Assembly (NCBI GenBank): GCA_016209155.1 | Contig: JACQWU010000156.1 | Coordinates: forward strand, 1-18,036 | Direction of reading: 5' to 3' | From: Candidatus Desantisiibacteriota bacterium | GTDB taxonomy: Bacteria > JACRDZ01 | Length of the DNA stretch: 18,036 nt | Shown: one piece after another, positions 16,730 to 17,695 of the stretch | Layout: the number at the start of each line of letters is the position of its first letter | Numbering within the stretch: position 1 is the stretch's first letter | The notes under the pieces: generated by a model | Database searches by the model: none | Told to the model about the DNA's origin: nothing | What the model saw: only the letters and a program-made list of their open reading frames with translations | Position numbers and translations under genes: made by a program

Positions 16730-16805
16730 GTAGGGGCAGGTCTTGCACCTGCCCGCGTTTCAACATATTGTTTATTTAGTAGGGCACCCGCAAGAGGGCC
16801 CCTAC
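16730..16805. repeat. REPIN-like element, copy 1 (76 bp)
   Basis: The element begins GTAGGGGC and ends with its reverse complement GCCCCTAC. The left arm after GTAG is a hairpin (GGGCAGG, loop TCTTGCA, CCTGCCC). The right arm is a second hairpin read from the other strand (GGGC-ACCCGCAAGAGG-GCCC), also bounded by GTAG on that strand. Two REP-type palindromes in opposite orientation with 5' GTAG tetranucleotides match the REPIN design. It lies between the vapB promoter and the tRNA-Phe promoter in a 277-base gene-free stretch. The spacer between the arms differs from copy 2. Confidence 0.8.
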
Positions 16806-16868
16806 AGATAGTATAAGGTGAATATTTATATTAAAATATAATTTAAAATTAACGACGATAAAAAAATC

Positions 16869-16896
16869 TTGACAAAAAGTTTATACTGTGTAAAAT
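16869..16896 (+). promoter_or_regulatory. Promoter of tRNA-Phe and pdaD
   Basis: TTGACA (16869-16874), a 16-base spacer and TAAAAT (16891-16896) precede the tRNA by about 53 bases. The leader then contains TGCATT (16911-16916) and AATGCA (16924-16929), which could pair as a small hairpin upstream of the tRNA. No further promoter lies between the tRNA and pdaD. Confidence 0.7.
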
Positions 16897-16949
16897 GCAC
16901 GTAAATAAAATGCATTGCGAAATAATGCAATTTATGAAAAAAATTTAAT

Positions 16950-17025
16950 GCCGAGATAGCTCAGTCGGTAGAGCAGAGGACTGAAAATCCTTGTGTCGGT
17001 GGTTCGATTCCGCCTCTCGGCACCA
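16950..17025 (+). tRNA. tRNA-Phe (anticodon GAA)
   Basis: This 76-nt cloverleaf has an encoded CCA. Acceptor strands are GCCGAGA and TCTCGGC with discriminator A. The D arm is GCTC/GAGC, and the anticodon stem GAGGA/TCCTT surrounds the loop CTGAAAA with anticodon GAA. The T arm is GGTGG/CCGCC with the loop TTCGATT. The pdaD ribosome-binding site GGAGG begins 8 bases after the CCA, so the tRNA and pdaD form one transcript. Confidence 0.97.
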
Positions 17026-17043
17026 GTTTTTTGGAGGGAAAAA

Positions 17044-17601
17044 ATGCTTGCAACACAGCTTGTGCCAAAAGAAATTTTTTTAACTAATGGTGTTGGAAGA
17101 CATAAAGAAAAATTGCAGTCATTTGAGTTTGCGCTTCGTAATGCCGGAATTGCAGAATTTAATCTTGTAAGAGTGTCCAGCATTTTTCCCCCGCATTGTA
17201 AAATAATTCCACCTAAAACCGGTCTTGCCAAGCTTGCTTCAGGCCAGATTGTTTTTTGTGTTATGAGTGATATAGCCTCAAACGAACCCAACAGACTTAT
17301 GGCAGCATCAGTCGGGCTTGCTATTCCTGCGGACCGCGAAAGACACGGTTATCTTAGCGAGCATCATGCTTTTGGACAGACAGATGCGGCGGCAGGTGAT
17401 TATGCTGAAGATCTTGCGGCATCAATGCTTGCTTCAACATTAGGAGTTAATTCTTATGAAGATCTTCATTGGGATGAAAAGAAGAAACTCTGGAAAATGG
17501 AAAATCAGATTGTTGTGACCAGAAATATAACACAGTCTGCGATAGGTGATAAAAAAGGATTATGGACCACTGTTGTTGCTGCAGCAATTTTGGTTGTGTA
17601 A
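17044..17601 (+). CDS. pdaD: Pyruvoyl-dependent arginine decarboxylase
   Basis: The 185-aa proenzyme cuts itself between Ser45 and Ser46 in NLVRVSSIFPP. Ser46 becomes the pyruvoyl group of the alpha chain, which decarboxylates arginine to agmatine for polyamine synthesis. Asn40 near the cleavage site and Glu106 in HGYLSEHHAFG match the conserved functional residues of the archaeal enzyme. GQTDAAAGDYAEDLAASMLA (111-130) is also a family block. The ATG at 17044 has GGAGG at 17033-17037; a longer reading frame starts inside tRNA-Phe and is not credible. No agmatinase or agmatine ureohydrolase gene follows. The family is mostly archaeal with scattered bacterial members, including a chlamydial acid-response enzyme. 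Confidence 0.93.
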   Translation: MLATQLVPKEIFLTNGVGRHKEKLQSFEFALRNAGIAEFNLVRVSSIFPPHCKIIPPKTGLAKLASGQIVFCVMSDIASNEPNRLMAASVGLAIPADRERHGYLSEHHAFGQTDAAAGDYAEDLAASMLASTLGVNSYEDLHWDEKKKLWKMENQIVVTRNITQSAIGDKKGLWTTVVAAAILVV

Positions 17602-17619
17602 TGTATAATGTATAATGTA
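17599..17619. repeat. Heptameric tandem microrepeat (TAATGTA x3)
   Basis: Three exact TAATGTA units start with the pdaD stop codon TAA (17599-17601) and run into the GTAG end of REPIN-like copy 2. This is the third 7-bp array in the window, with a sequence unrelated to the other two. Confidence 0.85.
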
Positions 17620-17695
17620 GGGGCAGGTCTTGCGCCTGCCCTTTATTTTGTTGTATATCCCGCGTTTATTGGGCACCCGCAAGGGATGCCCCTAC
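17617..17695. repeat. REPIN-like element, copy 2 (79 bp)
   Basis: It shares both arms with copy 1. The left arm GTAG plus the GGGCAGG/CCTGCCC hairpin differs at one loop base (TCTTGCG). The right arm GGGCACCCGCAAGGGATGCCCCTAC keeps the terminal GCCCCTAC. The central part is different, although a CCCGCGTTT phrase appears in both spacers at different positions. It fills the gap between the convergent pdaD and phosphoglycerate mutase genes, where its hairpins could also stop transcription. Confidence 0.8.

Follow-up and report, generated by a model that had tools for sequence, protein, structure and literature searches.

The question raised by this locus is whether two short GTAG-ended elements in a stretch of 18,036 nucleotides from Candidatus Desantisiibacteriota (the window) are mobile REPINs, and which enzyme of the genome would move them. 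A REPIN, as the term is used here, is a pair of GTAG-tagged REP hairpins placed head to head and joined by a short spacer. The parts of the elements and their neighbours are listed below; the tRNA gene and pdaD are given as context only.

16730..16754, plus strand: REPIN 1 left REP, with GTAG foot, 8-bp stem GGGCAGGT/ACCTGCCC and loop CTTGC
16755..16781, no strand: REPIN 1 spacer, with core ATATTGTTTATTTA, related to the REPIN spacers of contigs C178, C273 and C104
16782..16805, minus strand: REPIN 1 right REP, 24 nt, decayed (a base lost, weak pairing)
16950..17025, plus strand: tRNA-Phe(GAA), between the two REPINs
17044..17601, plus strand: pdaD, pyruvoyl-dependent arginine decarboxylase (PF01862, E 7e-60), between the two REPINs
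17617..17641, plus strand: REPIN 2 left REP, GTAGGGGCAGGTCTTGCGCCTGCCC
17642..17670, no strand: REPIN 2 spacer, without a significant match to the other spacers tested
17671..17695, minus strand: REPIN 2 right REP, GTAGGGGCATCCCTTGCGGGTGCCC, with an ACCC-type stem and one G-T pair
17707..18036, minus strand: open reading frame of the metalloenzyme superfamily, cut by the contig end and convergent with pdaD

Element 1 (16730-16805, 76 bp) and element 2 (17617-17695, 79 bp) each consist of two inverted hairpins placed head to head with their GTAG tags facing outward, and GTAG starts all four arms. The positions and lengths had been given exactly by an earlier, sequence-only reading of the window. 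A pattern of foot, loop and stem base, in which the inner stem was ignored, gave exact matches to three of the four arms and no further match in the window, and the chance expectation for the foot-plus-loop pattern is 0 matches in 200 dinucleotide shuffles of the window. The left arms read GTAGGGGCAGGTCTTGC[A/G]CCTGCCC and are 93% identical across 29 nt. On the minus strand, the right arms are GTAGGGGCCCTCTTGCGGGTGCCC (24 nt) in element 1 and GTAGGGGCATCCCTTGCGGGTGCCC (25 nt) in element 2; their stem is of a second kind (ACCC with GGGT), and the arm in element 1 is one base short. The centre of element 1 is common to the REPINs on the three contigs named above, the match on C104 being the weakest (p 0.02-0.05), and in the spacer comparison the centres of elements 1 and 2 show no significant mutual resemblance. 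The first description, near-identical arms around different centres, is borne out.

When folded as single-stranded DNA, both elements are more stable than all 200 of their own shuffles (z -3.8 for element 1 and -3.4 for element 2), and the left REP of REPIN 1 folds at -9.3 kcal/mol, a value reached by 0 of 200 shuffles. Two hairpin-forming palindromes had been proposed for each element. Stable hairpins with the GTAG tag are indeed formed by three arms; taken alone, the fourth, on the right of element 1, folds no better than shuffles (z -0.54). Judged by this degenerate arm, element 1 may no longer be mobile.

Copies of such hairpins are many and dispersed in the source genome (G000; 3.08 Mb, 352 contigs, 79% complete), which bears on the earlier remark that only a few copies genome-wide would speak against REPINs. 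The 8-mer GTAGGGGC, the foot of the hairpins, is unspecific alone, with 62+57 matches against 49+31 for the reversed control, and its count is not taken as evidence of copy number; the 25-nt pattern gives 15+22 = 37 matches against 0 for its reversed control. At least 106 distinct hairpins with this foot, at most one mismatch being allowed, were found in the fetched regions; one or two are doubtful, and the figure is a minimum since 19 of the 119 GTAGGGGC places are left out and the genome is incomplete. They fall into three formats: the window format with an 8-bp stem and a CTTGC-type loop (about 51, 19 of them on contig C186), a 26-nt format with a CCYRTG-type loop (18), and a palindromic 24-nt format (35). 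With 13 copies, the left REP of REPIN 2 is the sequence met most often among the REPs of these regions. Head-to-head dimers were recognised 28 times in these regions, 16 of them in the window format, and most window-format dimers pair two unlike stem variants, for example AGGT with AACC or ACCC. The arms recur with unrelated flanks and are not part of a larger unrelated transposon, the other circumstance that had been named as adverse.

A REPIN type of 54 bp, in which GTAGGGGCTTGATTTATCAAGCCC and GTAGGGGTTCGATTTATCGAACCC are separated by a 6-nt spacer, is common in this genome (e.g., L013:450-503 and L047:2110-2163); neither for it nor for hairpins of the palindromic format (GTAGGGGCTTGATTTATCAAGCCC) in general was a RAYT found in G000. 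Elsewhere, at L037:6795-7577, a REPIN (7309-7366) lies apparently in frame inside a gene for a YgjP-like metallopeptidase, where the Pfam match is broken into two stretches and the extra residues between them are the translated REPIN. A VGAGLAPAH stretch in a type I HsdR, aligned to solved structures, was considered as another possible insert; in-frame insertion is better supported by the YgjP-like domain.

Which enzyme could serve this population? A search of G000 with the Pfam Y1_Tnp family returned six Y1 genes, none with GTAGGGG in the fetched flanks, which suggested that a cognate RAYT is absent from the genome. In other genomes with the hairpin, Y1 matches are split in two by a GTAGGGGC pair, and a profile (A1) was built from the proteins split in this way. 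The A1 search of G000 overturned the apparent absence, revealing further genes and relics, among them an intact RAYT (E 4e-60):

G000:C186:20271-20888 (= L037:15272-15889), minus strand: RAYT, 205 aa, intact, detected by the A1 profile

The protein has the HUH motif MPNHLHGI and the Tyr motif WQRNYYEH, and between them, in frame, its gene contains a REPIN of the window format. Hairpins of the same format stand on both flanks of the gene. It is part of a REPIN cluster within a type I restriction-modification locus, with hsdM on one side and hsdS on the other. The sequence-only reading had proposed to look for a RAYT-clade Y1-HUH transposase flanked by the same palindromes; such an enzyme is thereby at hand, and this protein is most likely the cognate RAYT of the window REPINs. 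It matches the NCBIfam model REP_Tyr_transpos with E 2.3e-21 at a score of 76.2, below the cut-off of 80, and Pfam at 20.2, below the cut-off of 23; we read these low scores, and the failure of the plain Pfam search, as a result of the internal insert, which splits the domain. In the predicted structure the core has pLDDT above 90 and the REP-encoded stretch (approximately residues 81-120) about 50-63, and the modelled loop is probably flexible. In the fold search, 4ER8, a structure of the E. coli RAYT in complex with a REP hairpin, ranks first, followed by IS608 and ISDra2; 4ER8 is also the one solved structure whose sequence the RAYT family profile matches.

Hairpin format and RAYT lineage are co-inherited. 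On a RAYT tree from which the insert was removed, the hairpin format changes 15 times, compared with 37.3 for shuffled labels and with 0 of 200 shuffles as low, the bootstrap values of the tree being unsettled and its deep forks weak; an earlier tree with fewer rows gave the same outcome. The C186 protein clusters with two proteins that bear the CTTGC-loop hairpin. Among 386 genomes, this type of RAYT is present in 21 of the 26 with the window-format REP and in 97 of the 360 without it (p 6e-8; p 5e-5 after removal of the genomes that supplied A1, both values being uncorrected for shared ancestry and genome quality). The inner stems covary as well: in the four upper pairs, which were free to vary while the three G-C pairs at the base were fixed by the search pattern, 65 both-sided changes were counted against 21 in shuffles, and 94% of cells are paired.

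Taken together, these results make it highly probable, in our view, that the window elements are non-autonomous REPINs of a population dispersed by a RAYT (TnpA_REP) Y1-HUH transposase of the subclass 2.4 kind, and what was observed is their anatomy, their dispersal, a RAYT with matching hairpins in the same genome and the covariation of the stems. The initial assignment to REPIN-like elements of the RAYT-mobilised kind stands, given the copies, the matching RAYT and the lack of a larger transposon. By analogy with E. coli and other RAYTs, the enzyme would recognise GTAG and the hairpin in single-stranded DNA, cleave beside the hairpin, rejoin the ends and move the REPIN as a unit; the analogy draws on the biochemistry of other RAYTs (PMC8266576) and on the 4ER8 structure. 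The population had further been called active or recently active. The many intact hairpins and the open reading frame of the C186 RAYT make this plausible, though not for the decayed right arm of element 1.

The surroundings in the window bear on other readings. Element 1 is located between a leftward MazE-like/PIN gene pair and the rightward tRNA-Phe, flanked by two divergent promoter-like sites, and element 2 lies between convergent stops, approximately 16 nt past the pdaD stop and 11 nt before the end of the gene at 17707-18036. Such intergenic places are ordinary REP sites. A short direct repeat, TGTATAATGTATAATG, directly precedes element 2 at 17601-17617, just past the pdaD stop. It could be argued that the elements are chiefly regulatory, that is, bidirectional terminators or mRNA-stabilising hairpins selected beside pdaD and the tRNA gene, and the left hairpin of element 2, with TATTTTGTTG behind it, has been called terminator-like in its position 16 nt past the pdaD stop between convergent genes. 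Element 1, however, is upstream of the promoter-like site of tRNA-Phe rather than behind a gene, other copies are read in frame as part of genes such as the YgjP-like one and that of the RAYT, and the GTAG foot, the dimer format and the matching RAYT play no part in termination. We regard a chiefly regulatory role as quite unlikely. The window copies themselves are probably without a selected function, and REPIN 2 may incidentally aid the end of transcription after pdaD.

The elements do bracket tRNA-Phe and pdaD by position, as had been pointed out, with the same arm orientation on both sides of the segment, and it might be supposed that they mobilise it as a composite unit. Nothing points to a mobile segment: both the single recurrence of REPINs across the genome with unrelated flanks and the lack of significant similarity between the two spacers speak for two separate insertions, which makes a composite unit scarcely credible. 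An origin of the hairpins as end remnants of a classical IS200/IS605 element, for which the Y1-HUH fold shared with RAYTs and the IS608 and ISDra2 structures behind 4ER8 in the fold search could be cited, is likewise extremely improbable, as the NCBIfam models give the C186 protein a match to REP_Tyr_transpos and none to IS200, most copies consist of a dimer or a lone hairpin and carry no gene, and the GTAG foot is the signature of REPs.

To return to REPINs moved by a RAYT, the hairpins inside the transposase genes deserve attention. When 84,980 species genomes were scanned with A1 by means of two peptide patterns outside the insert, 80 RAYT loci from many phyla were obtained. At least one internal GTAG hairpin is present in 71 of these 80 genes, and 40 have hairpins in the flanks; the density of GTAG hairpins is 3.1 per kb inside the genes and 0.15 at more than 1 kb distance (20-fold), and five control tags show no excess inside the same 80 genes. 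Of 25 RAYT genes that the profile picked from a further set of genomes, 23 have an internal GTAG hairpin, although several are A1 members and the profile ranking may favour insert-bearing genes. The insert mostly lies 4-12 residues past the HUH motif. Among 65 plus arms, 52 are read as GTA-GGG and 13 in the next frame, and none is in the third frame, which would give an in-gene TAG stop. At bases left unfixed by the search, nearly all internal hairpins start with GTAGGGG and end with CCC or similar, and their stem base consists of three G-C pairs. The novelty of internal hairpins in RAYT genes was considered and dropped, as they have already been reported for subclass 2.4 (PMC6006769).

It can be asked whether the RAYT-internal REPIN is a kept cassette rather than a tolerated passenger, tying the transposase to the hairpin that it recognises. 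The internal REPIN would then be a source copy, or a place on the gene or its mRNA to which the encoded enzyme binds. The near-universal insert, its near-constant place after the HUH motif and the match of format to lineage are compatible with this idea, which we nevertheless consider doubtful. If it is true, a kept cassette would let RAYT and hairpin stay matched through horizontal transfer between phyla.

How does the system compare with those already described? REPINs in Pseudomonas fluorescens were reportedly described by Bertels and Rainey in 2011 as short mobile units made of a pair of inverted REPs and dispersed in a genome that also has a RAYT. The window elements resemble them in all these respects of build, dispersal and accompanying RAYT, but their RAYT belongs to another group and most dimers here mix stem variants (AGGT with AACC or ACCC). 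Di Nocera et al. (2013, PMC3733652), who set out 24 consensus families, found GTAG REPs in more than 80 species of eight phyla, GTAG and CGTC types both counted, and described stem variants with complementary changes as well as heterodimers and head-to-head dimers. The GTAG tag, the complementary stem changes, the head-to-head dimers and heterodimers, and the spacers common within subfamilies are all shared with these families. Quentin et al. (2018, PMC6006769) describe the TnpA_REP subclass 2.4 as scattered over many phyla, with REPs that have a stem base of three G-C pairs and are inserted in frame in the part of the gene between HUH motif and Tyr motif. The system studied here likewise has a canonical GTAG-foot REP with three G-C pairs at the stem base, a patchy spread over phyla, REPs flanking the gene and an in-frame insert between the two motifs. 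Likened by described features, it shows no structural difference from subclass 2.4, and since every tested feature fits that description, it is a system of an already known kind. An extension of REPINs beyond gammaproteobacteria, suggested at the outset, is therefore not new, given GTAG REPs in eight phyla (PMC3733652) and a multi-phylum RAYT subclass (PMC6006769). A full-text literature search for GTAGGGGC returned no paper on repeats among the matches listed. The C186 protein has the E. coli RAYT (4ER8) as its best fold match, yet is only 15% identical to it and differs in its REP-encoded loop, a low-confidence part of the model.

What is added to subclass 2.4 is a small phylum, the internal hairpins (71/80 and 23/25) and a hairpin format that tracks the RAYT tree. 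A REPIN-RAYT system is placed in a poorly sampled phylum with its transposase identified, a transposase overlooked by plain Pfam, the gene being interrupted by the element that its product would move. Approximately 100 RAYT genes with their own hairpins in one reading frame also provide a data set on RAYT-hairpin recognition, in which the foot and stem base are constant, the upper stem is free to covary and different enzymes go with different hairpin formats.

Other RAYTs accompany other hairpins in the same genome. A second RAYT on C208 (L259:258-869, minus strand) has a hairpin of the 26-nt format inside the gene and clusters on the tree with bearers of that format; a short tandem repeat (QIQGEH/QKQGED) has arisen by expansion of its internal insert. 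RAYTs or relics on C106, C3, C257, C349 and C89 accompany still other GTAG hairpins, those at L043 (C106), L040 (C349), L260 (C257) and L262 (C3) being GTAGGGAATGGTTT, GTAGGGCAAGGC, GTAGAGACGCAATGC and GTAGAGACATGCCATGG, respectively. In another genome, the HUH core is missing from a RAYT relic at L121:2327-2695 (G349:C88), and one fused remnant of a GTAG hairpin is present instead, as if a deletion had removed what lay between two internal REPs. On C89 (L042:5129-6208), a RAYT-like Y1 domain lies in frame inside an apparent DNA methyltransferase reading frame, flanked by GTAGG[TA]CAGGC hairpins that are translated as VGQAFLPV...TGMSDLP.
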